Origin: Cryptosporangium minutisporangium
Lineage (GTDB): Bacteria; Actinomycetota; Actinomycetes; Mycobacteriales; Cryptosporangiaceae
Reading direction: 5' to 3'
Assembly: GCF_039536245.1 (NCBI RefSeq)
Contig: NZ_BAAAYN010000024.1
Coordinates: 26,032 to 76,266, forward strand
DNA length: 50,235 nt
In this document: piece by piece, positions 1,997 to 13,125 of the stretch
Layout: each line of letters begins with the position of its first letter
Position numbering within the stretch: the first letter of the stretch is position 1
The notes under the pieces: generated by a model
The model's input: the letters and a program-made list of their open reading frames with translations, nothing else
Databases searched by the model: none
What the model was told of the DNA's origin: nothing
Program-made: the position numbers and the translations under genes

Positions 1997-2914
1997 TCAC
2001 CCGCTCGCCGACCGTGGTCGCCCCGCGAGCCGGGCCTCCAACCGGCGGATCCTCGTCTCCAGCCGGGCCTGATCCATCCGGAGCTCGCCGATCAGCCGCC
2101 CCAGGCTCTCGGCCGGCCGGTCGGCCAGCTCGACGGCGTGCGGCGGCGACTCGCGCTCGTCCCGCAGGTCGCCGGAGAGCATCCGGGCGTGCAAGTGCCG
2201 GAGCTCCGCGCCGGGTCCGACACCGACGTGCTCGACCAGATGCTCCCGCGCCGCGCGGTAGGCGGCAAGCGCCTCGCCCACCCGGCCGCTGCGGTAGAGC
2301 GCGAGCATCAGCGCGGCCCGCAGCCCCTCGCGCAGCGGATAGGCGTCGACGAGCGGCAACAGCTCGGTGACGAGCGCCCGGTGGGCGCCGACGCGGAGCA
2401 GCGCCTGGGCGCGCTCCTCCAGCACGGTGACGCGTAACTCCTCCAGCCGCGAGCGCTCGGCCTGGACGCAGGGTGAGTCGCCGGCGGCGCCGGAGAGCGC
2501 GGGGCCCTGCCACAGCTCCAGGGCGTCGTCGTAGAGGCCGGAGCCGCGGTGGTACGCGCCGGTGGCGACCGCCTGGCGGGCGGCGAGCACCAGGGCCTGG
2601 AAGCGCAGCCCGTCGACCGCGTCGTCCGCGACGTGCAGCGCGTAACAGGCGCCGCGGGTGACGATCACCGCGCCGGCCACCTCGGTGCAGGCGAGGCTGA
2701 GCCGGTGGCGGAGCCGGCTGACGAGCGCGTGGACGGCGTGCGCCGGGTGGCGGACCCGGCCGGACCAGATGCCCTCGGCCAGGTGCTCACGGGTGACCGG
2801 TTGCCCGAGGTGGGCGACCAATTCGGCGAGCAGAGCGGACTCGCGGGCTGCGGAGATCGGCACGATGCCCCGCGGTCCTTCGACGGTGAGGGAACCAAGG
2901 ATGTTGAGGCGCAC
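1997..2914 (-). CDS. SARP-type transcriptional activator (winged helix + BTAD)
   Basis: The 305-residue protein has the AfsR/DnrI/SARP architecture. An OmpR-like winged helix occupies about 1-90 (MRLNILGSLTVEG, SALLAELVAHLGQPVTREHLAEGIW, HAVHALVSRLRHRL). A bacterial transcriptional activator domain covers about 97-240 and ends ALMLALYRSGRVGEALAAYRAARE. There is no NB-ARC domain, so it is a small SARP. The last 40 residues form a charged coiled coil (LGRLIGELRMDQARLETRI), an extra dimerisation element. SARPs activate secondary-metabolite clusters. It is divergent from the RiPP precursor gene across 225 bp and is the natural candidate activator of that cluster, though no convincing heptamer array was found there. 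The 3' end faces the DUF4352-type gene 29 bp away. Confidence 0.92.
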   Translation of the reverse strand: MRLNILGSLTVEGPRGIVPISAARESALLAELVAHLGQPVTREHLAEGIWSGRVRHPAHAVHALVSRLRHRLSLACTEVAGAVIVTRGACYALHVADDAVDGLRFQALVLAARQAVATGAYHRGSGLYDDALELWQGPALSGAAGDSPCVQAERSRLEELRVTVLEERAQALLRVGAHRALVTELLPLVDAYPLREGLRAALMLALYRSGRVGEALAAYRAAREHLVEHVGVGPGAELRHLHARMLSGDLRDERESPPHAVELADRPAESLGRLIGELRMDQARLETRIRRLEARLAGRPRSASG

Positions 2915-3139: not shown

Positions 3140-3391
3140 GTGAGCAGACTCTTCGCGTTCCGGGTTGCGAGCCCGGTCACCGATCCACCGCAGAGCCCCG
3201 TGGCGACCGGCTACGACGCCGCCACTCAGACGCTCGTCTGGGAGGGCGACAGCGGCACCACGATGGGCAGCGCCCTCTGTTCGGGCGGCTACTACAGCGG
3301 CCGGAACCCCTGCCAGTCCACCGGCACGGCGTGCACCGGAACCAGGTGCAGCAAGTCCTACCTGGGCTGCTACGCCTGCGACTACGCCTGA
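3140..3391 (+). CDS. tgmA: RiPP precursor: ATP-grasp target (TgmA-like) leader fused to a six-Cys core
   Basis: From GTG at 3140 (GAAGGGA site 9 nt upstream) the product is 83 residues. Its first 37 residues carry the signature of ATP-grasp target RiPPs: F-A-F-R near the N terminus, SPVTDPP, then GYDAATQTLVW and an acidic turn (E35, D37). Members of that family normally end in a short, poorly conserved tail. Here a 46-residue core follows, rich in Gly/Ser/Thr, with six cysteines at 47, 58, 65, 70, 77 and 80 (C-x10-C-x6-C-x4-C-x6-C-x2-C) and ending CYACDYA. The even cysteine number and the MauE and CXXC genes downstream suggest three disulfides. The only acidic residues near or in the core are E35, D37 and D81, which limits classical ester/amide graspetide links. 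The ATP-grasp gene follows after a GC-rich hairpin. GTG at 3098 would add 14 residues and is judged less likely. Confidence 0.8.
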   Translation: MSRLFAFRVASPVTDPPQSPVATGYDAATQTLVWEGDSGTTMGSALCSGGYYSGRNPCQSTGTACTGTRCSKSYLGCYACDYA

Positions 3392-3398
3392 TCCGGTC

Positions 3399-3433
3399 GC
3401 GGCGCCGGCCGACGGCGCTCCGGCCGGCGCCGC
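3399..3433 (+). terminator. Intercistronic hairpin between precursor and maturase genes
   Basis: GCGGCGCCGGCC at 3399-3410 pairs perfectly with 3422-3433 (12 bp, 11-nt loop), starting 8 nt after the precursor stop and ending before the GGGAGGAA ribosome site of the ATP-grasp gene. There is no T run. In RiPP clusters such hairpins commonly let the precursor mRNA accumulate above the enzyme mRNA, by partial termination or by blocking 3' decay. That role is inferred here. Confidence 0.65.
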
Positions 3434-3448
3434 ACCCCGGGAGGAAGC

Positions 3449-4459
3449 GTGAGTTCTGCCCAGATCGTCATTTCGACGAACGTCTTCGACGCACACACCG
3501 ACGTCCTGATCGATCTGCTCGTTCGACGCGGGCACGAGCCGATCCGGGTCAACTCCTCGGAGCTCCCCGGCGGCGCGGTGCTCTCCGCCCGCCTCGACGG
3601 TCCGGAGTGGACCGGCACGCTGCACGTCACGGCCGGTGGCCGCACGTTCGCGTGGGAAGACGTCACCGCGGTCTGGTGGCGCAAACCGACCGGCTTCGGA
3701 CTGCCCGCCGACCTGTCGGAGTGGGAGCGGGAGTTCGCCGAGGAGGAGCTCCGGCACGCCACCGGTGGCCTCTGGGCGTCGCTGGACTGCTACTGGATGA
3801 GCCGCCCCGACGACATCCGGCGAGCCGGCTACAAGCTCGAGCAGCTCCAGCGGGCGCGCCGGCTCGGGCTCGCGGTCCCCCGGACGCTGATCAGCAGCGA
3901 TCCGGCGGCCGTGCGCGAGTTCGCCGACGACTGCGACGGCCGGATCGTCTACAAGGTCCTCACCGACCCGTACCTGATGGCCGGACGCACCGTTGATCGC
4001 AACCACGATGCCGACGTCGAACCGCGGTTCGTCGCGACGACGCTGGTCACCGCCGCCGAGCTGGCGGCGCTGGAGTCGACGGTCCGCACCGTGCCGTGCC
4101 AGTTCCAGGAGTTCGTCGAGAAGCGGGTCGAGTACCGGGTCACGGTGATCGGGGACGACCTGTTCGTCGCCGAGATCAGCCCGGCCGACGGTCCGCCGCC
4201 GGGCGTCGACTGGCGGACCGAGACCGATCGGCTCCGGATGCGGCCCGGATCGCTCCCGGACGACGTCGCCGAGGCGTGCCTGGCGCTGGTGCGGTCGTAC
4301 GGTCTGCAGTTCAGCGCGATCGACCTGGTCCGGGACAGGGACGGCCGGCTGCTGTTCCTGGAGAGCAACCCCAACGGCCAGTTCCTCCACGTCGAACAAC
4401 GGGTGCCGGAGCTGCGGATGGCCGACGCGGTCGCGACCCGGCTGATCACGGGGCGGTGA
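3449..4459 (+). CDS. tgmB: ATP-grasp ribosomal peptide maturase (TgmB/MvdD-like)
   Basis: The 336-residue protein is a peptide-modifying ATP-grasp ligase. Diagnostic features are the N-terminal substrate-recognition domain with AVWWRKPTGF (about 70-79), the central region VYKVLTDPY and CQFQEFVEKRVEYRVTVIGDDLFVAEI (nucleotide clamp), and the C-terminal Mg/ATP site FSAIDLVRDRDG...FLESNPNGQFLHVE with its Glu and Asn metal ligands. The NPNGQF ending is typical of the SAV_5884/TgmB group paired with TgmA precursors. The family activates carboxylates as acyl-phosphates to form side-chain lactones or lactams or to add amino acids; the bond formed here is unknown. GTG at 3449 has a GGGAGGAA site. The protease gene starts 3 nt after its stop. 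Confidence 0.9.
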   Translation: MSSAQIVISTNVFDAHTDVLIDLLVRRGHEPIRVNSSELPGGAVLSARLDGPEWTGTLHVTAGGRTFAWEDVTAVWWRKPTGFGLPADLSEWEREFAEEELRHATGGLWASLDCYWMSRPDDIRRAGYKLEQLQRARRLGLAVPRTLISSDPAAVREFADDCDGRIVYKVLTDPYLMAGRTVDRNHDADVEPRFVATTLVTAAELAALESTVRTVPCQFQEFVEKRVEYRVTVIGDDLFVAEISPADGPPPGVDWRTETDRLRMRPGSLPDDVAEACLALVRSYGLQFSAIDLVRDRDGRLLFLESNPNGQFLHVEQRVPELRMADAVATRLITGR

Positions 4460-4462
4460 GCC

Positions 4463-5278
4463 GTGGACGCGCTCACTGCACTCGCCTCCGTCCGCGGCCG
4501 CCCGGTGCTCTGTTGCCACGGGCGGATCGACGAGGACCTCGCCGACCGGCTCGATCCGCTCGTCCGGGACCTCCCCTGCGGCGCCGGCCTGGACGTCGTC
4601 CTGTCCACCCGGGGCGGGTCGCCCACCGGGGCGCGCCGGGCCGTGGCCGTCCTGGCGGACCGGACACCTCACCTCGCGGTGCTGGTCGGAGTGCGGGCCC
4701 GCTCGGCAGGCACCCTGTTCTGCCTCGGTGCCGACGAGATCGTCCTCACCGCCGGCGCCGAGCTCGGCCCGATCGACCCGGTGATCGAGCAGGCGTCCGG
4801 TGATCCGGCCGTCGGCGCGCTCTCCGCCGCCGATCTCCGGGCGTTCCGAAGCCTGGCGGCCGACTGGTTCGACGTGTCCGCGCGGGAGAACGGCGTCGAT
4901 CTGCTGGCGCTGCTGTCCCAGCGGATCGCCCCGACCGCGCTGGCGCGGCTCTACCGGGCGGACGCGCTGGCCCGCTCCCTGGCGACCGCGCTGCTCCGCC
5001 GGAGCGAGGCCGATCCGGCGGCGATCGACGCGATCGTCGAACGGCTCGTCGCCGGCTACCCGTCGCACGACTACCCGATCCTGCGCGACGAGGCCCGGGA
5101 GGCCGGGCTCCCGGTCGTCGACGCCACCGACGCGGAGACCAGGGCGTTGCGCGCCGTCGACGACGCGGGCCGCGCGCAGTTCGCCGCGGCCGCCGCCGAC
5201 GGGCTGGAGCTGCCCACGATCGTCCTCTCCGCCCAGCCCGAAGCAGCACCGTCCCCACCGTCCCTGCTCCGGAGGTGA
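4463..5278 (+). CDS. SDH/Clp-fold serine protease, likely RiPP leader peptidase
   Basis: The 271-residue protein matches the SDH_protease (serine dehydrogenase proteinase) branch of the Clp/crotonase fold. LSTRGGSPTGARRA is the oxyanion-region loop. RARSAGTLFCLGADEIVL carries the presumed nucleophile Ser81, GAELGPIDP is the family's conserved turn, and YPSHDYPI contains His202. Family members usually have Y-K-A before the SAGT serine and an N-terminal membrane span. This one has R-A-R there, no transmembrane segment and no lysine anywhere, so an SppA-style Ser-Lys dyad is impossible and Ser81/His202 is the likely pair. It sits 3 nt after the ATP-grasp gene and 3 nt before MauE. Since the exporter lacks a C39 domain, it is the best candidate for leader removal. 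Confidence 0.82.
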   Translation: MDALTALASVRGRPVLCCHGRIDEDLADRLDPLVRDLPCGAGLDVVLSTRGGSPTGARRAVAVLADRTPHLAVLVGVRARSAGTLFCLGADEIVLTAGAELGPIDPVIEQASGDPAVGALSAADLRAFRSLAADWFDVSARENGVDLLALLSQRIAPTALARLYRADALARSLATALLRRSEADPAAIDAIVERLVAGYPSHDYPILRDEAREAGLPVVDATDAETRALRAVDDAGRAQFAAAAADGLELPTIVLSAQPEAAPSPPSLLRR

Positions 5279-5281
5279 GCC

Positions 5282-5848
5282 ATGCCGTGGGCTGCCGCCC
5301 TCCCCGTCCTGGCCGGCGCCGTCGTCGCGACGACGTTCGCCGTGTCAGCCGTCGCCAAGGTCCGTGACCTCGACGGCTTCCACCACACGATCACGCTGTT
5401 CACCCCGCTGCCCGATCGCGTCGCCCGGTGGACGGCACCGGCGGTGGTGGCGCTCGAAGCGCTGCTCGTGGCGCTGCTCGCCGCGGGCGTGGTGCTCGGT
5501 GCCGGCGGTGCCATCGCCGCCGGGCTCGCCGGGGGCGTGGTCCTGCTCGCCGGCTACACCGCGATCCTCGCGCGGGCGCGGCTGCAAGGCACGAGCGTCG
5601 GCTGCAACTGCTTCGGCCGCACCGCGCAGCGGCTGTCCTGGTACGACGTCGTCCGCAACCTGCTGCTGCTCGGCGTCGGCGGAGCGGGGTGGGCGGCGTC
5701 GGCGGAGCCGGCGCCCCCGCTGGCCGGGGCCGACACCGGTCTGCTGGTGATCACCGGGGCGGCGCTGACCGTGCTCGTCATCCACCTCGGCGACCTCGCC
5801 GAGGTGCTCCGCCGACCGCTCGCGCTGGATCTGGAGGACGCGTCATGA
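5282..5848 (+). CDS. MauE/DoxX-like redox-associated membrane protein
   Basis: The 188-residue protein has four to five membrane spans (roughly 5-22, 45-62, 68-88, 118-135 and 150-168). It carries the MauE hallmark CNCFG at residues 108-112 after a short loop, and VSAVAKVRD near the N terminus. MauE was named from methylamine dehydrogenase maturation. In RiPP and bacteriocin clusters such proteins partner thioredoxin-like proteins for thiol-disulfide exchange across the membrane, in a VKOR/DsbB/CcdA-like role. A GGAGG site precedes ATG at 5282, and the stop overlaps the next start as ATGA. With a six-Cys precursor in the same operon, disulfide formation or protection in the product is the natural reading. 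Confidence 0.85.
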   Translation: MPWAAALPVLAGAVVATTFAVSAVAKVRDLDGFHHTITLFTPLPDRVARWTAPAVVALEALLVALLAAGVVLGAGGAIAAGLAGGVVLLAGYTAILARARLQGTSVGCNCFGRTAQRLSWYDVVRNLLLLGVGGAGWAASAEPAPPLAGADTGLLVITGAALTVLVIHLGDLAEVLRRPLALDLEDAS

Positions 5849-6444
5849 CCGCGGTGAGCCTTTCCCTCTACGTGCTCGGGACCCTGATCCTGGTCAACCT
5901 GCTCCTGACCCTGCGATTGGTCGCCTGGGCGCGGCGTCGGACCAGCACCGCGTCGCTCGCCGAGAACTGGCTGCCCGAGCTGGCGGTCGGCGCGACCGGC
6001 CCGACGTTCCGGGCCCGATTCCTCGACGGGCGGCGGATCGACGAGCGCACGTACGCCGGCCGCGAGGTGGCGTACGTGTTCCTCTCCCCCAACTGCGACG
6101 GCTGCACGCGCACGCTGCCGCAGCTGCAGAAGTTCTACGGCGCCGCGGCAGCCCGCGGCACCGAGATCGTCGTCGTCACCGACACCGGCCCGCGGCAGAC
6201 CTCCAGCTGGTTGGAGGAGATGACCGCGGACGGAACGCCGCTGCGCACGCCGGTCGTGGCCGCGCCGCACTCCGAGAGCGCGTTCATCAAGGTCTACAAC
6301 GGACCGCTGCTGTTCCCGTACTTCTGCGTCGTCGGCACCGACGGCACGGTCCGGGCGCGCGGCCTGGTCGGGCGGGACGCCTGGATGGAGCAGGTCGAGG
6401 TGTGGGCCGGCCGTACCGCAGGCGTCCCCGCCGATGTCTCGTAA
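5845..6444 (+). CDS. Membrane-anchored thioredoxin-like (TlpA/redoxin) protein, CDGC motif
   Basis: The 199-residue protein has an N-terminal signal anchor (residues 4-28) and a charged stop-transfer ARRR, then an extracytoplasmic thioredoxin fold. The YVFLSPNCDGC strand places the active-site CXXC at 84-87, and LLFPYFCVVG supplies the cis-proline region. It is of the redoxin/TlpA type, which often occurs with MauE, and it starts in the ATGA overlap with the MauE gene. Probably it shuttles electrons or disulfides between the MauE protein and the exported cysteine-rich peptide. Direction (oxidant or isomerase) cannot be told from the motif. Its 3' end overlaps the exporter gene by 11 nt. Confidence 0.87.
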   Translation: MTAVSLSLYVLGTLILVNLLLTLRLVAWARRRTSTASLAENWLPELAVGATGPTFRARFLDGRRIDERTYAGREVAYVFLSPNCDGCTRTLPQLQKFYGAAAARGTEIVVVTDTGPRQTSSWLEEMTADGTPLRTPVVAAPHSESAFIKVYNGPLLFPYFCVVGTDGTVRARGLVGRDAWMEQVEVWAGRTAGVPADVS

Positions 6445-8239
6445 GGCCGCGACGGTTCTGCGGGTCGCGCGGTCGACGACCCGCCTGCTGTGGCGGTCCG
6501 CACCCCGGCTGACGCTGTTCGTGCTGCTGTCGCAGGTGGCCGCCGCCGCCGGTGCGGCCGCCGCCCTGCTGCTCGTCCGCGCGCTGATCGCGACGCTGGT
6601 CGGGGACACCGGCGGGAGCGGCGGGCCGCTCCCGCTCCTGCTCGGCCTCGGCGCGCTGCTGGGCTCCTCGTCGGTGCTGCTGGCCGTGCAGCGTCACCTC
6701 ATGACGCTGCTCGGCGAGCACGTCGCGATGTACGCGATGGAGCGCGTGCTGGACGTCGCGTGCCGGGTCGAGCTGGCGGCGTTCGACTCACCGGAGTTCC
6801 ACGGACGGCTCCGCCGCGTGCAGGACGCCGGGCACCGCCCGATCGAGTTCACCGAGGCGCTGCTCTCCGCGACGTCGTCGCTGCTCACCGGGGTGGCGGT
6901 GCTCGGGACGCTGTGGGTGATCGACCCCCTGCTCGTCGTCTGCGTCCTGCTCTCCACCGTGCCGCTGCTGCTGGCCGGCGCCGCCGCCAGCCGCGGGATG
7001 TTCACGCTCAGCGTCGATCTGGTCCGCAACGACCTGCGGCGCACCTACGTGCGGTCGCTGATGACCGGCCGGGAGAGCGCCAAGGAGGTCCGCGTGTTCG
7101 GGCTGGCGTCGGCCCTCTCGGCGCGGCACCGCACGCTGTTCGCCGAACGGCTGGTGGCGCTGCGGGCGGTGCTGCGCCGGATCACCTGGCTCAGCCTGCT
7201 CGGCGGGGTGGGCACGGCGCTCGGCGTCGCGCTCGGCGGCGGACTGCTGGTGCGGTCGGTGGCGGCCGGCGAGCTCACGGTGGCGTCGGCAGCCACCGCG
7301 GTCGCCGCGCTCATGCAGGTCGTGCCGCTGCTCGTCGGTGCGTCGCAGAGCGTCGCCCAGGTCTACGAGAACAGTCTCTTCGTGGACGACTACGAGCGGT
7401 TCTGTGCGGACGAGGCCCGGCTCCCGGTCGCGGCGGAGGGCCGTCCGGCGCCCGCCTCGCTCGACCGGGTCACGGTCGAGCACGTCACGTTCACCTACCC
7501 CGGCGCTGCGGTGCCCGCGCTGCGCGACGTCTCGCTGTCGGTGCGGCGCGGGGAGGTGGTCGCGCTGGTCGGGCCGAACGGGTCCGGCAAGACGACGCTG
7601 GCCAAGCTGCTGTGCGGGCTCTACCGGCCGGACCTGGGCGCGATCCGGTGGGACGGCACCGACCTCGCCGAGCTGGACCCGGACGGTTACCGGGCGCGGC
7701 TGACCGTGATGTTCCAGGACTTCATCCGGTACCAGTTCACCGCGGCCGAGAACATCGCGCTCTCCACTCAGCGGAGCGTCGCGGAGGCCGCGCGCCGGGC
7801 CGGTGTCCACGACTTCGTGGCCCGGCTTCCGGCCGGCTACGAGACCGTACTCAGCCGCGAACTGAGCGACGGCGTCGACCTCTCCGGCGGCCAGTGGCAG
7901 CGGATCGCGCTGGCTCGGGCCTTCCACCGGGACGCGCCGCTCGTCGTCCTCGACGAGCCGACCGCGGCGCTCGACGCGGAGGCCGAGCACGACCTGTTCA
8001 CGCGGCTCCGCGACCTCTACACCGACCGGGCCGTCGTGCTGGTCTCCCACCGGTTCTCCACCGTCCGCGAGGCGGACCGGATCTACGTGGTGGAGGGCGG
8101 CACGGTCACCGAGAGCGGCGAGCACCGCGACCTGATGGCCCTGGACCGCACCTACGCCCGAATGTTCCGTCTCCAGGCGGCCGGCTACGCCCCGCCGCTG
8201 CGTCCGGCCGGGACCCCAGTGGCGAGCGGCCGAGGATAG
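6434..8239 (+). CDS. ABC exporter, fused permease and ATPase (RiPP export)
   Basis: The 601-residue protein is a half-transporter. A six-helix type I exporter domain (about 20-320, with coupling region RESAKEVRVFGLA) is followed by a nucleotide-binding domain with Walker A GPNGSGKTT (about 379-387), Q-loop FQDF, signature LSGGQWQR (about 482), Walker B VVLDEPTAALD (about 503) and H-loop VSHR. There is no N-terminal C39 peptidase domain, so it should export an already cleaved or uncleaved peptide. It overlaps the thioredoxin-like gene by 11 nt and closes the RiPP operon. It presumably works as a homodimer. Selectivity for the neighbouring Cys-rich product is inferred from the linkage. Confidence 0.92.
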   Translation: MSRKAATVLRVARSTTRLLWRSAPRLTLFVLLSQVAAAAGAAAALLLVRALIATLVGDTGGSGGPLPLLLGLGALLGSSSVLLAVQRHLMTLLGEHVAMYAMERVLDVACRVELAAFDSPEFHGRLRRVQDAGHRPIEFTEALLSATSSLLTGVAVLGTLWVIDPLLVVCVLLSTVPLLLAGAAASRGMFTLSVDLVRNDLRRTYVRSLMTGRESAKEVRVFGLASALSARHRTLFAERLVALRAVLRRITWLSLLGGVGTALGVALGGGLLVRSVAAGELTVASAATAVAALMQVVPLLVGASQSVAQVYENSLFVDDYERFCADEARLPVAAEGRPAPASLDRVTVEHVTFTYPGAAVPALRDVSLSVRRGEVVALVGPNGSGKTTLAKLLCGLYRPDLGAIRWDGTDLAELDPDGYRARLTVMFQDFIRYQFTAAENIALSTQRSVAEAARRAGVHDFVARLPAGYETVLSRELSDGVDLSGGQWQRIALARAFHRDAPLVVLDEPTAALDAEAEHDLFTRLRDLYTDRAVVLVSHRFSTVREADRIYVVEGGTVTESGEHRDLMALDRTYARMFRLQAAGYAPPLRPAGTPVASGRG

Positions 8240-8350: not shown

Positions 8351-10882
8351 ATGCTGACGCTCGATCCGGCGGCGCTGGCCGATCCGCTGCGCCTGGCCGC
8401 CGTCGCACGCGCCCGACTGGTGCTGCCGACGCTGCCGATCCCGCTGACCAAGATGAGCCGGCACGCCGCCCGGCTGCTGGACGCACCGATGGGCCTGATC
8501 ACGCTCGTCGGGCAGGACTTCGAGTACTTCGCCGGCAGCTACGGGGCTCCGCGTTCGCTGGTCGCCGGTGACGAGGCGTCGGTGGCCTACTCGCTCTGCA
8601 AGTACGTCGTCAGCGCGGACGGCCCGGTCCTCTCCGCCGACCTGGACGCCGAGGACGACGCCCGGCTGCGCCACCACCCGCTCGCCGTCGAGTACGGCGT
8701 CCGGGCGTTCCTGGGCGCTCCGCTGCGGGACACCGACGACCGGCCGGTCGGATCGGTGACCGTCCTCGACACCCGGCCACGGCCGTGGACCGGTTCCCAG
8801 ATCGCGGCGGTGGTGGAGATCGCCGAGCTCGTCGGCCCGGTGCCCGCGACCGCGCCGCACCTGGACACACCGCTGGCCGGCGTCGAGGCCGCCGTCGTCT
8901 TCGACGCGGTCGCCGAGGCCTTCCTCACCCTGAACCCCGACGCGGTGATTACCGGCTGGAACTCCGCCGCCGAGGAACTGTTCGGCTGGACGTCGGAGCA
9001 GGCCTGCGGTCGGCACGTCGAGGACCTCCTCCGCCCGGGCGACGGCCCACCGGCGATCCACACGATCCTCGATCGGCTGCTCCAGGTGCACGCTACCGAG
9101 GTCGACGCCGACCGGCACCTGCACGGCGCGGTGCGGGTGCGCCACCGGGACGGCCGTCCGATCCACGCGCAGGTCCGCCTGTCGGTCATCCACAGCCCCG
9201 CCGGTGCGATCATCTGCGCGTTCTTCACCGACATCACCGGACAGGTCACGATGGCCACCGAGGCGGCCAGCGCCGCCGAAGCGGCCGAGATGCAGCGGGC
9301 CTTCGCCGACGCCCTGCTCGACAGCCTCTCCGAGGGCGTGGCGGCCGTCGACGCCGAGGGCCGGGCGGTCGTGTTCAACCGGGCCCTGCGTCGGCTCTGC
9401 GGCCAGCCGGAGACGGCGTCCACGGCCGAGGCGATGGCCGGAGTGCTGCCGGTGCTCCACCACCCCGACGGCGAGCCGTTCACCGCCCGCGACCTGGTTC
9501 TGACCGCCGCGCTGAGCGGAGCCACGCTCCGCGACACCCAGGTGCTGGTGCGCCTCCCCGGCCTGCCCGACCGGCACGTGCTCACCAGCGGGCAACCCAT
9601 CCAGGCCACGGACGGACGGGTGATCGGAGCGGTCGCCACCATCCGGGACGTCACCGTCCGGCGCCGCACCGAACAGTTCCGCGACTGCGAGCTGGCCGTC
9701 GCCCGGCTGCTCAACCACGCGACTTCGTTGGAGGAAGCCGCTTCCGAGCTCGCACGCATCGTCGCCGCGACCCTCGGCTGGCCCTACGTCAGCATCCGGC
9801 GGATCGACCCGGCCACCGGCGTCCTCCGCCGGATCGGGCACTGGGACGAGGGTTCCGACGCCATCCGTGAACTGCTCACCGCGCAGCTCACGCCCACCAC
9901 CGAGGCCGTGATGCGTCAGGTCTGGGCCACCGGCGAGCCGGTCTGGATCCCCGATCTGGAGACGTCGCCGCTCTTCGACGACCCGGAGGCACGCGAACGG
10001 ACCAAACTCTACGTCCACCACGGCCTGCGGTCCGCGGTCTCGGTCCCGTTCCACGACGGCACCGACACCGTCGGCGCGCTCACCTGCTTCGCCGATACCG
10101 CGGAGACCGACCAGATGCTGATCACCGGCCTGGTCACCGCGATCGGCGCGCAGGTCAGCCAGTTCCTGATCGGGCGCCGCGCAGCCGACCTGGCGCTGCA
10201 GCTGGCGCACACCCGCGCGGAGTTCACCGCGCTCGTCGGCCACGACATGCGCACCCCGCTGACCACGATCGCCACCTACACCCAACTGTTGCTCGACGAT
10301 CCGGCTCCGCGGCCGGACTCCGACCAGCAGCTGCTGCGCGGGATCGACCGCGGCACGGCCCGGCTCCGCAGCCTGGTCGACGCGCTGCTCGACCTGGCCG
10401 CTCTCGAAGCCGGCGACCAACCGCTGCAGGCGCACGACGTCGACCTCAGCGCGCTGCTCCGGCAGGCCGTCGCGGACGTCCGGCCCACCACCGAAGCCGC
10501 CGGGATCACCCTGCACGCCCAGATCGACCCCGACGTCCACCTCGACGGCGACGACCAGCGGCTGCACGCCCTCGCCGACACGCTCCTCGCGTCGGCCAGC
10601 TCCGCCACCTCCGGCGGTGACCTGTTCGTCGCGCTGCACGCCCGCAACGGTGCCGCCGAGCTCACGCTCTCCGCGCCCGGCGACGCGGCCACCGAGCTGG
10701 TCAGCCGCTTCTCCCCCGCCAACGCCACCGGTACCGGGCTCGGCTCGAGCGCCGACACCGTGCCGCGGCTCGGGCTGGCCCTGGTCCGGGTGATCACCGA
10801 GCGGCACGGCGGGACCTTCGCCCTCACCGGGCCGTCGACGATCAGGCTGCGGATCCCGCTCGCGGCGGCCGAGACCCCCTGA
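8351..10882 (+). CDS. GAF-PAS-PAS-GAF histidine kinase-like protein with degenerate ATPase domain
   Basis: The 843-residue soluble protein has no membrane span. Domains in order are GAF (about 20-170, PMGLITLVGQDFEYF), PAS (about 185-300, PDAVITGWNSAAEELFGW), a second PAS (about 315-435), GAF (about 455-610), HisKA with phospho-acceptor His631 (LVGHDMRTPLTT), and a C-terminal HATPase_c-like region. In that last domain the N-box Asn is missing (ADTLLASASS instead of a NLLxNA motif) and the DxGxG box reads SAPGDA. Only a GLALVR-like G2 box remains, so ATP binding is doubtful. ATG at 8351 has a GAGGAGGG site and is preferred to GTG at 8324. It is convergent with, and paralogous to, the intact kinase on the other strand. 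No response regulator is nearby. Confidence 0.88.
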   Translation: MLTLDPAALADPLRLAAVARARLVLPTLPIPLTKMSRHAARLLDAPMGLITLVGQDFEYFAGSYGAPRSLVAGDEASVAYSLCKYVVSADGPVLSADLDAEDDARLRHHPLAVEYGVRAFLGAPLRDTDDRPVGSVTVLDTRPRPWTGSQIAAVVEIAELVGPVPATAPHLDTPLAGVEAAVVFDAVAEAFLTLNPDAVITGWNSAAEELFGWTSEQACGRHVEDLLRPGDGPPAIHTILDRLLQVHATEVDADRHLHGAVRVRHRDGRPIHAQVRLSVIHSPAGAIICAFFTDITGQVTMATEAASAAEAAEMQRAFADALLDSLSEGVAAVDAEGRAVVFNRALRRLCGQPETASTAEAMAGVLPVLHHPDGEPFTARDLVLTAALSGATLRDTQVLVRLPGLPDRHVLTSGQPIQATDGRVIGAVATIRDVTVRRRTEQFRDCELAVARLLNHATSLEEAASELARIVAATLGWPYVSIRRIDPATGVLRRIGHWDEGSDAIRELLTAQLTPTTEAVMRQVWATGEPVWIPDLETSPLFDDPEARERTKLYVHHGLRSAVSVPFHDGTDTVGALTCFADTAETDQMLITGLVTAIGAQVSQFLIGRRAADLALQLAHTRAEFTALVGHDMRTPLTTIATYTQLLLDDPAPRPDSDQQLLRGIDRGTARLRSLVDALLDLAALEAGDQPLQAHDVDLSALLRQAVADVRPTTEAAGITLHAQIDPDVHLDGDDQRLHALADTLLASASSATSGGDLFVALHARNGAAELTLSAPGDAATELVSRFSPANATGTGLGSSADTVPRLGLALVRVITERHGGTFALTGPSTIRLRIPLAAAETP

Positions 10883-10917: not shown

Positions 10918-13125
10918 TCAGTCCGGGGTTGCTGCCGGTCGTTCGGAGGCCGGCAGCCGGACCTCGAACGTCGTCCCCGGCCCCGGGACGTCGGCGATCG
11001 CGATCGTTCCGCCGTGCGCCTCGACGATCGCGCGGACGATCGTCAGCCCCAGACCGGTGCCGGGGATCCCGTGGTTGCGGGCGGTCGAGGCCCGGTAGAA
11101 GCGGTGGAAGAGCCGCGGACGCTCCGCCTCCGGGATCCCGATGCCGGTGTCGCTCACCGCGAGGCGGACCGTGTCGTCCTCCGTCCGGACCCGGATCCGT
11201 ACTTCCCCACCGTGCGGGCTGTATTTCACCGCGTTGGAGAGGAGGTTGTCGAGCACCTGACGGAGACGGACGACGTCGGCCCAGAGGCCGGCCCGGTCGG
11301 GCACGTCGGTGAGCACCTCGACGCCTGCGGCGCGGGCGGCGCCGGCGGCCGCCCCGACCGAGTCGTGGACGACCGCGACCAGGTCGACGTGGTCGCAGCT
11401 CACCGTGAACCGTCCGGACTCCAGCGCCGCGAGGTCCAGCAAGTCGTTGACGATCGCCCGCAAGCTGCGCGTGTTGCGGTCGACCCGTTCGAGCAGCAGG
11501 CGGTGCTGGGCGGAGCACTCCTGCTCGGGGTCGGTGAGGATCAGCTCGGTGTAGGTCGAGATCGCGGTCAGCGGCGTCCGCATCTCGTGGCTGACCAGCG
11601 CGAGGAACTGGTCCTTGGTGCGGGCCAGCTCCAGCGCGAGTTCGTCGGCGCGGCGCCGGGCCATGTACTGCCCGATCTGGTGCGCGATCGTTCCGAGCAG
11701 AGTCGTGAGGAGCTCCTCGCCGCCCTCGATGGTGTCCGCGAAACACGCGAGGACGCCCTGCACCACCCCCTCGTCGAGGAGCGGGACTGCCAGCACCGTC
11801 CGGAGTCCCTGGCGGGCGCACTCGCGTGTCCGCGCGGCCGCCTCGCCGCTTCCCACGTACGGGCTGGTGAGCAGGTCGGGCACCCAGAGCGGCTGCCCGC
11901 TGGCCCACACCGAGCCCACGATCCCCTCGGGACCAGTCACGGACGGGAGCTCGACGCGGAGGTCGAGGGCGGGCGCGCTCCACTGGGCCACCGGCTCCAG
12001 GTGCTCGGAGGTCGCGTCGAGGAGCCACAGCTCCGCGTGCGGCCACTGCAGGCTCCGCGCCACCGCCTTCAGGACGGTGGGCGCCGCGTGCGCGACCGAG
12101 TGCGCCTCGGCGAGCGCCCGGGCCACCTGCAGCTCGCAGTCGGCGAAGCGCTCGGCGCGCCGCCGGTCGGTGATGTCGTGGAACGCGGTCACCGCGCCCA
12201 GACACCGGCCGTCGCCGGAGTAGATCGGCTTCGCGTTCGCCGATCCGATCCGCAGACGTCGGCCGGGCGCCGTCATGATCACGTCGGTCTGCTCCACGAC
12301 CTCGCCGTTCAGGGCCCGAACCAGCGGCACCCCGGTGAGCGGCAGCGGTTGCCCATCCAGTCCGAGCAGCGGGTTGGTGACCAGCGACGCCTCCAGCCCG
12401 TCCGTCGGTGACCAGGATGCCGGTAGGTCGCGGAGCTCCCGGAGCGCGCGGTTGTAGAGGAGTAGCCGGCCGTCTGCGTCGCAGGCGGCCACCCCCACGT
12501 CCAGGGTCTCCAGCAACGCGCTCAGGAACAGGTGCGGAACGTCGGGGTACGGCTCGGCCGGGTCGTGCCGGATCGGCCGAGCGTTACCGGCTAGGATCGC
12601 CAACCGGTCCACCGCCTCGACCTGCGCTTCCTCCCAGTGCCGCGGAGCCGCGTCGACGACGTAGACCGCACCCACGATCCGCTCGTCGTCGTCCCGCAGC
12701 GGCACGCCGAGCAACGCCCGGATGCCCTCGGACACCGAGACCGGGCAACAGCCCCAGCGGAGGTCCTCGGACGTGTCGTCGACCACCACCGAGCGATTCG
12801 ACCGCAACACGCACGCGGCCGGTCCGGCCTCGATCGGCGAGGCCTCCGGCCAGGTCTCCGCCGCAGCACCGTAGCGGCCCGCGACCCGCTCCGCGCTGGC
12901 GTCGATCGCGGTGCAGACCGCGGCCGGAGCGTCGGCCAGCCGCGCAGCCAGCTCGGCGAGCTCGTCCGGCGCGACCGACCGGCGGTGCCCGACCGCCCCA
13001 TTGGCCCCGGCGGAGCCCAGCGCCCGAGCAGACCCCGCCGCCCCAGCCGGACCGGCGGGCACCGCGGAGGCGCGGTCCGGCGCTGCGCGCCCCCGCTTCC
13101 GGCTCTGCTTCCCGCTCACGCCCAT
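10918..13125 (-). CDS. GAF-PAS-GAF sensor histidine kinase (intact)
   Basis: The 735-residue cytosolic kinase starts with a Lys/Arg- and Ala/Gly/Pro-rich tail of about 45 residues. GAF (about 65-210), PAS (about 215-345), GAF (about 360-500), HisKA with His513 (LVSHEMRTPLTAIS) and a complete HATPase_c follow. Its boxes are LDNLLSNAVKYSPHGG (N), DTGIGIP (G1), FHRFYRA (F) and GTGLGLTIV (G2). ATG at 13125 has a GGGCGGGGGGG site and fits the basic N terminus; longer in-frame readings upstream have no homology-like content. It lies tail-to-tail (35 bp) with its paralogue. As an orphan kinase it must signal to a regulator encoded elsewhere, or heterodimerise with the degenerate paralogue. Confidence 0.9.
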   Translation of the reverse strand: MGVSGKQSRKRGRAAPDRASAVPAGPAGAAGSARALGSAGANGAVGHRRSVAPDELAELAARLADAPAAVCTAIDASAERVAGRYGAAAETWPEASPIEAGPAACVLRSNRSVVVDDTSEDLRWGCCPVSVSEGIRALLGVPLRDDDERIVGAVYVVDAAPRHWEEAQVEAVDRLAILAGNARPIRHDPAEPYPDVPHLFLSALLETLDVGVAACDADGRLLLYNRALRELRDLPASWSPTDGLEASLVTNPLLGLDGQPLPLTGVPLVRALNGEVVEQTDVIMTAPGRRLRIGSANAKPIYSGDGRCLGAVTAFHDITDRRRAERFADCELQVARALAEAHSVAHAAPTVLKAVARSLQWPHAELWLLDATSEHLEPVAQWSAPALDLRVELPSVTGPEGIVGSVWASGQPLWVPDLLTSPYVGSGEAAARTRECARQGLRTVLAVPLLDEGVVQGVLACFADTIEGGEELLTTLLGTIAHQIGQYMARRRADELALELARTKDQFLALVSHEMRTPLTAISTYTELILTDPEQECSAQHRLLLERVDRNTRSLRAIVNDLLDLAALESGRFTVSCDHVDLVAVVHDSVGAAAGAARAAGVEVLTDVPDRAGLWADVVRLRQVLDNLLSNAVKYSPHGGEVRIRVRTEDDTVRLAVSDTGIGIPEAERPRLFHRFYRASTARNHGIPGTGLGLTIVRAIVEAHGGTIAIADVPGPGTTFEVRLPASERPAATPD

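Follow-up and report, generated by a model that had tools for sequence, protein, structure and literature searches.

A candidate graspetide-type gene cluster with a protease, a thiol-redox pair and an exporter in Cryptosporangium minutisporangium and related loci of other phyla

The operon and its family assignments

In a 50,235-nucleotide stretch of the Cryptosporangium minutisporangium genome (contig NZ_BAAAYN010000024.1, positions 26,032 to 76,266; hereafter the window) we found an operon that resembles a gene cluster for a ribosomally synthesised and post-translationally modified peptide (RiPP) of the graspetide kind and that encodes in addition a protease, a redox pair and an exporter. 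Six genes were confirmed at positions 3140-8239, all on the plus strand and co-directional, with intergenic distances of 57 (between the precursor and ATP-grasp genes), 3, 3, -4 and -11 nt in order. An initial annotation of this DNA had described them as tightly packed, and both the coordinates and the last four distances were borne out.

3140..3391, plus strand: precursor peptide, 83 amino acids, GTG start
3449..4459, plus strand: graspetide-synthetase-type ATP-grasp ligase, 336 amino acids
4463..5278, plus strand: SDH-type ClpP-fold serine protease, 271 amino acids, with Ser81-Asp105-His202
5282..5848, plus strand: MauE/DoxX-like membrane protein with five long helices and a CxCFG motif
5845..6444, plus strand: TlpA/MauD-like thioredoxin, membrane-anchored, CxxC at residues 84-87
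6434..8239, plus strand: ABC exporter, 601 amino acids, with a hydrophobic N-terminal half and an ATPase

The ATP-grasp protein passed the cut-off of PF21068 (MvdD pre-ATP-grasp; 40.6 versus 27 bits), and profile A2 matched solved ATP-grasp peptide ligases (5ig8, 1.1e-56; 5ig9, 3.7e-55; 7mgv, CdnC, 4e-54), of which the first two are presumably MdnB and MdnC. Towards its C-terminus the ligase has D and E-x-N motifs that align with those of 5ig9. Judged by these matches, the ligase belongs to the graspetide-synthetase ATP-grasp superfamily. It did not reach TIGR04187, the model for TgmB of the SAV_5884 type, to which the initial annotation had assigned it (250.9 versus 350 bits, E 1.6e-74). The same annotation had called the precursor TgmA-type and had named a failed match to the TgmA model TIGR04186 (GRASP_targ) as what would speak against this; the precursor scored 13.1 versus 25 bits (E 0.077) over residues 5-42 only, which lie in the leader, and because of this score the label fails. 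By these family models the cluster is not TgmA/TgmB, though its pathway resembles the graspetide kind.

TgmA/TgmB graspetides share with the window the ATP-grasp superfamily, the position of the precursor upstream of the ligase and a similar leader (PFGLRFA...YDDDTQ in the C44 precursor of this genome, LFAFRVA...YDAATQ in the window). The window differs in missing both curated cut-offs, in its Cys-bearing core, redox pair and SDH, and in a ligase clade separate from that of the C44 ligase. The C44 precursor belongs to a canonical TIGR04186-type locus on another contig of the same genome (C44:382307-382486; L001, L021). All four members of the genus searched had a ligase score at the level of this type of locus, and the window cluster was found only in this genome.

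The precursor combines a leader LFAFRVAS...YDAATQTLVW with a core containing Cys47, Cys58, Cys65, Cys70, Cys77 and Cys80; Ser48 forms a dyad with Cys47, and Asp81 directly follows the last cysteine. The gene is a single copy in its own genome. An Acidothermaceae metagenome-assembled genome (MAG; locus L017) encodes all six window genes in the same order, and because two precursor homologues (53-54% identity over 83 residues, all six cysteines kept) sit in this syntenic cluster of another actinobacterium, the comparison identifies the precursor reading frame as a real gene.

Among the remaining proteins, the protease exceeded the cut-off of PF01972 (47.1 versus 31.3 bits) and missed that of NF047768, the equivalog model for SDH family Clp-fold proteinases (65.3 versus 250 bits). 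Ser81, Asp105 and His202 are invariant in 32 of 32 cluster SDHs, and their order is, we assume from the family description, that of the SDH triad. MauE passed PF07291 (75.8 versus 27 bits), its CxCFG motif is invariant in 31 of 31 proteins, and its structure model reached a predicted local distance difference test score of 93.5. The thioredoxin, likewise with CxxC in 31 of 31, passed PF00578 (AhpC-TSA; 37.5 versus 26 bits) and missed the MauD model TIGR02661 (25.2 versus 188.6 bits), being of AhpC-TSA/TlpA type instead. The ABC protein contained a clear ATPase domain (PF00005, 112.4 bits, cut-off 25); its transporter membrane domain stayed below threshold (PF00664, 18 versus 28), and no C39 peptidase domain was found among the 25 Pfam matches listed. 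The gene calls and family matches support the general logic of the initial annotation, which had combined ATP-grasp modification, proteolysis, redox handling and export.

Recurrence of the gene set and regularity of the precursors

Related loci form a non-random sample, having been picked for the resemblance of their ATP-grasp to that of the window or for their SDH score; 80 of them were the best 80 of 168 obtained when genome contigs were scanned with the ATP-grasp alignment. The 39 loci examined are the clade members described below plus the divergent L019 (35 loci plus the later L137-L139 and L141), with L026 left out as it lies on the same contig as L017. In a tree of 84 ligases, which includes near-copies (seven from Janthinobacterium), the window ligase fell into a supported clade of 34 rows (99/99). 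Thirty-one of these were labelled as having the module of SDH, MauE and thioredoxin (30 with all three genes and L032 with SDH only), and L027, L028 and L056 were without it. A second tree, with L137-L139 (actinobacterial) and the Deinococcus locus L141 added and near-copies thinned, gave a clade of 30 rows (100/99), 26 of them with the module, L032 counted among them. The clade spans Actinomycetota, Chloroflexota, Verrucomicrobiota and Pseudomonadota, plus a Deinococcus plasmid locus (L141).

SDH, MauE and TlpA-type thioredoxin occurred together in 34 of the 39 loci, in the same order and on the same strand in 32 of these 34, and SDH was present in 35 of the 39. L032 had SDH only, and no module gene was found in L027, L028, L056 and L141; the contig of L056 ends just past the ligase and that of L028 within the ABC gene after it. 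By tblastn, an ABC homologue was present in 31 of 34 loci, a count for a broad family in which adjacency was not required. Module presence was clustered on the tree of ATP-grasp ligases (0 of 500 shuffles were as low). Profile mapping detected SDH or MauE in 0 of 49 graspetide-type loci outside the clade; 36 of these loci had flanks of 3 kb or more on both sides, and 43 had that much sequence downstream of the ligase. Ligase phylogeny and gene order together indicate that this set of genes is what its own ATP-grasp clade regularly carries, across phyla. The initial annotation had named missing synteny between ATP-grasp and redox genes as a refutation, and this synteny was present in 34 of the 39 loci; its description of a hybrid, in which a TgmA/TgmB pair is joined to a protease and a thiol-redox export module, turned out to be misleading, the combination being standard for this clade.

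Of 394 genomes of the class that were searched for SDH, 12 contained a match, and three of these other than the source of the window (G155, G319 and G315) have the window gene set. SDH stood alone in G152 (one of eight other matches), in G049 and G078, which came from a search of relatives, and in G180, all fetched with flanks. Several clusters of the type belong to named isolates of Janthinobacterium, Massilia, Rheinheimera and Kangiella. The Chloroflexi MAG AL-N1 contained two different clusters of this kind, L030 and L033, on separate contigs, and in L033 MauE and thioredoxin lie on the opposite strand.

Proteobacterial precursors were searched for with a pattern made up of a leader F[AG]..., the motif [AG]GC and a Cys no more than two residues from the C-terminal end. 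Because the pattern demanded them, these are selected features; the Ser/Thr after the Cys, the Asp and the Gly are unselected. Start codons were assigned mechanically, and some N-termini are cut. All 22 proteobacterial loci of the clade hold precursors, one to nine each (n=48, where several precursors of one locus are related sequences and not independent events). The leader is mostly of the form ...FAFxLAEK..., followed mostly by W[KQ]xR...AGC[ST]...DxGx[YWF]C. Ser or Thr follows the first core Cys in 48 of 48; in the 43 distinct cores it is Ser in 22 and Thr in 21, with Ser and Thr making up 10.9% of the core residues beyond. Each of the 43 distinct cores also has Asp or Glu at position -5 relative to the last Cys. 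The 41 with a terminal Cys have Asp (40) or Glu (1) at -5 and Gly at -3, and the two ending in CysAla keep the Asp and the Gly. Exactly two cysteines are present in 47 of the 48 precursors, and the third Cys of the 48th is in its leader.

Precursors of the other loci were found by a leader pattern, L018 also being read by eye. Of these 16 precursors, 14 contain at least two cysteines (2, 4, 5, 6 or 8), that of L032 one and that of L141 none. In the 14, Ser or Thr follows the first Cys in every case, versus 7 of 44 later cysteines, and an acidic residue lies at most six residues from the last Cys in 13. The precursor ends with CD in the window, L017, L025, L030 and L139, and with D...C in L018, L019, L137 and L138. 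The leader motifs were LFAFxLA, PFGLGLA or PFGMNIA, although the searches themselves used this motif. For graspetide leaders, a conserved hydrophobic motif near the N-terminus, of the type Phhx(1,2)h, is described in the accessible part of PMC8939145. Run against NCBIfam, eight precursors from related loci had no match at E <= 1, and their Pfam matches were all sub-threshold. At two fixed places beside the outer cysteines, Ser and Thr replace each other and, in one case, Glu replaces Asp; this is the trace that would be expected of a hydroxyl-carboxylate ester made by an ATP-grasp enzyme.

Two loci provide natural controls. L141, on a Deinococcus wulumuqiensis plasmid (NZ_CP031163.1, 441121-455993), encodes a clade ligase and an LFAF-leader precursor without any Cys, and profile searches of its 14.9 kb at E <= 1 turned up none of SDH, MauE and thioredoxin. 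L032 combines SDH with a one-Cys precursor, and neither MauE nor thioredoxin was found in 19 kb. Both would fit a role of the redox pair in handling core cysteines, as far as two loci can.

In Massilia sp. BJB1822 (L034:7929-9941) nine precursors are arranged in tandem, with variable loops between invariant GC[ST] and DxGx..C ends. An open frame just 5' of the ligase in Nonomuraea (L031:9757-9897) ends RPCSADYFPDGTCLW and fits C[ST]...DGxC; it overlaps another frame. Pattern hits at L034 9688-10119, L051 12375-12488 and L055 11473-11901 were antisense or unrelated frames and were not counted.

Proposed maturation and competing explanations

We consider it about 70% probable, from the gene content and conservation described above, that the operon encodes a graspetide-type RiPP together with its own disulfide pathway, a maturation protease and an ABC exporter. 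A cross-link made by the ATP-grasp ligase is very probable, and disulfides in the product are to be expected with good confidence. The leader (LFAFxLAxP...YDxxxQxxVW) would dock the precursor on the ligase. This enzyme would then activate the carboxylate of a side chain towards the C-terminal end, for the window most probably that of Asp81 next to the last Cys, and link it with loss of one water to a hydroxyl group, for which the Ser/Thr behind the first core Cys (Ser48) is the best candidate. Both assignments follow conservation, and we give even chances to Ser48 and Asp81 being the linked pair. MauE and thioredoxin would oxidise the core cysteines (six in the window, two in proteobacteria), so that disulfides and ester would be adjacent. 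The six conserved cysteines would fit the product mass that the initial annotation had predicted, lower by 6 Da and one water. The electrons would pass to MauE and from there probably to the quinone pool, the use of quinone being an assumption, since a comparison of the MauE model with solved proteins gave no match at E <= 0.001. SDH, with its triad intact, would cut off the leader; as no peptidase domain was recognised in the exporter, this step is placed in the cytoplasm. The ABC protein would export the product. In the likeliest order, the precursor would first be esterified under guidance of the leader, then oxidised by thioredoxin and MauE, then freed of its leader by SDH and finally exported.

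Oxidation is placed before export, at the cytoplasmic side, because the charge distribution puts the redox sites there. In a simple hydropathy and charge count over 31 thioredoxins with real start codons, Lys and Arg numbered 6 before the anchor helix versus 88 in the 15 residues after it, and five of the six stem from one uncertain start (L029). In 31 MauE proteins, Lys plus Arg per 100 residues reached 14.2 in loop 1, 10.8 in the CxC loop and 14.6 at the C-terminus, and on the opposite side 1.3 at the N-terminus and 1.3 and 3.8 in loops 2 and 4. Read by the positive-inside rule, this distribution would place both redox sites on the cytoplasmic side, which we favour slightly. A precedent exists in an archaeon, whose VKOR faces inward. 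The same pathway might instead have its redox pair facing the cell surface, the peptide being exported reduced and oxidised outside. Known bacterial thiol oxidation is mostly extracytoplasmic. The accessible text on class I lasso clusters with a DoxX-type protein and a thioredoxin states no membrane side (PMC9266682). The charge patterns of both proteins speak against this outward arrangement, which we regard as a serious though less probable alternative.

The role of SDH as leader peptidase appears likely to us. It accompanies the ligase in 35 of the 39 loci, the exporter is without a recognised peptidase domain, and three cluster SDHs outside the model scored 310-315 bits on it, with non-cluster hits at about 100 bits or less, except that of G819 at 144. 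Alternatively, SDH might act in self-resistance or quality control. The accessible text of Carter 2026 suggests that the serine proteinase of graspetide group 9 is perhaps a duplicated housekeeping gene for self-resistance (PMC13097080). SDHs without a cluster are also common. Given the score gap and the close association with the ligase, we hold this role to be rather unlikely. The SDH of intermediate score (L140; G819:C13) had no ligase or redox genes within the 19 kb fetched.

The redox pair might also serve the ligase or the protease, or keep the cysteines reduced and ready, for example for an ATP-grasp thiolactone, giving a product without disulfides. The chemistry of ATP-grasp enzymes could in principle take a thiol, the lasso redox pair has been reported as seemingly dispensable for disulfide formation (PMC9266682, accessible text), and cysteines are odd in number in L025 (five) and single in L032. 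Set against this are even Cys counts (2, 4, 6, 8) in 13 of the 14 non-proteobacterial precursors with at least two cysteines, the two-Cys rule of the proteobacterial precursors, the conservation of Ser/Thr at the partner position and the Cys-free precursor of L141, where the redox pair is absent, and we judge a disulfide-free product improbable. A chance neighbourhood, in which an ordinary Tgm-like pair stands beside unrelated protease, redox and transport genes, could draw on the weak TIGR04186 match of the leader and is refuted by the synteny across phyla, with overlapping genes and a module that follows the ATP-grasp tree, leaving it practically no probability.

Several points weigh against a graspetide-kind cluster with disulfide formation, protease maturation and export, beyond the missing structural match of MauE, the simplicity of the topology count and the reports on self-resistance and on the lasso redox pair. 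The five cysteines of L025 cannot all pair, and the L033 precursor is without an acidic residue at a distance of six residues or fewer from its last Cys. The searches of L027, L028, L031 and L036 yielded no precursor. The contig of L027 starts at the ligase and holds no module gene in the next 2.8 kb, and tblastn detected no ABC homologue in L031. L019 has a full module and two precursors, with a ligase on a very long branch outside the clade. L141 cannot separate the roles of SDH and redox pair because it lacks SDH too. The most far-reaching version of our interpretation, a separate cross-phylum graspetide class in which every product is doubly clamped by a Ser/Thr-Asp/Glu ester nested against a disulfide, with an inward-facing MauE/thioredoxin relay and a dedicated SDH leader peptidase, we put forward as doubtful.

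Relation to known systems and neighbouring genes

Microviridin-type ligases and CdnC (5ig8, 5ig9, 7mgv) resemble the window ligase in profile (E 1e-56 to 4e-54) and in their common D and E-x-N motifs. The microviridin leader and core differ from those of the window, and we know of no SDH or MauE module with microviridin-type ligases or CdnC. The nearest likeness to the redox pair lies in class I lasso clusters of the sviceucin type, which encode SviE (DoxX) and SviF (a CxxC thioredoxin) and make a disulfide-bearing product; they differ by their lasso chemistry, and the accessible text mentions no graspetide ligase or SDH (PMC9266682). Among candidate RiPP families of Streptomyces predicted by decRiPPter, some contain mauE, one also mauD, with precursors of at least 8 cysteines; in the accessible text these are listed as separate candidate families, with mauE untied to ATP-grasp or SDH (PMC7794033).

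Carter 2026 reports, in its accessible text, a serine proteinase of unnamed family in over half of graspetide group 9 and oxidoreductases in some clusters at low frequency, and its main text contains no mention of MauE, SDH, DoxX, thioredoxin, Cys or disulfide (PMC13097080). The main text of Makarova 2022 likewise holds no mention of MauE, DoxX, SDH, thioredoxin, redox or disulfide; its accessible part places motifs of groups 8, 9 and 11 in one precursor cluster with a shared leader and calls the graspetide-cleaving enzyme unknown (PMC8939145). Peptidase-containing transporters and, in 2026, a microviridin protease (PMC13039773, accessible text) have since been proposed or reported. A description of this cluster type was not found in the accessible open literature searched; the group 9 proteinase mentioned by Carter 2026 is the main risk to novelty.

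What appears new here is a graspetide clade that spans phyla, has its own protease and disulfide module and shows a strikingly regular Cys-Ser/Thr...Asp...Cys core. If the interpretation is true, graspetides would gain a second, orthogonal type of cross-link, their leader would be removed by a protease family not named for that role in the literature covered, and the clusters might provide a case of inward-facing disulfide formation. The combination of ATP-grasp, SDH, MauE and CxxC thioredoxin with a precursor C[ST]...Dx(4)C or C[ST]...CD would be a minable signature, and the nine tandem Massilia precursors would represent a natural library for ligase specificity.

Two further features accompany the operon in the window.

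~3399..3433, plus strand: GC-rich hairpin (13 bp fold) in the gap between precursor and ATP-grasp genes
1997..2914, minus strand: SARP-type regulator (Trans_reg_C and BTAD; PF03704 132.8 bits, PF00486 34.4), divergent from the operon

The hairpin may possibly set the ratio of precursor to enzyme; its stability is unexceptional for its composition (z -1.87, 7 of 200 shuffles equally stable). The SARP-type protein is a possible regulator of the cluster. A homologue 46.8% identical over 218 amino acids adjoins the syntenic cluster L017, and none was found in the 33 other loci searched. Just 3' of the operon, two convergent GAF/PAS sensor histidine kinases are encoded (8351-10882, plus strand; 10918-13125, minus strand), and nothing ties them to it. 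Positions 1126-1967 of the window encode a probable single-pass membrane protein whose N-terminus is a long repeat rich in Gly, Gln and Pro (YGQPAYGQP).

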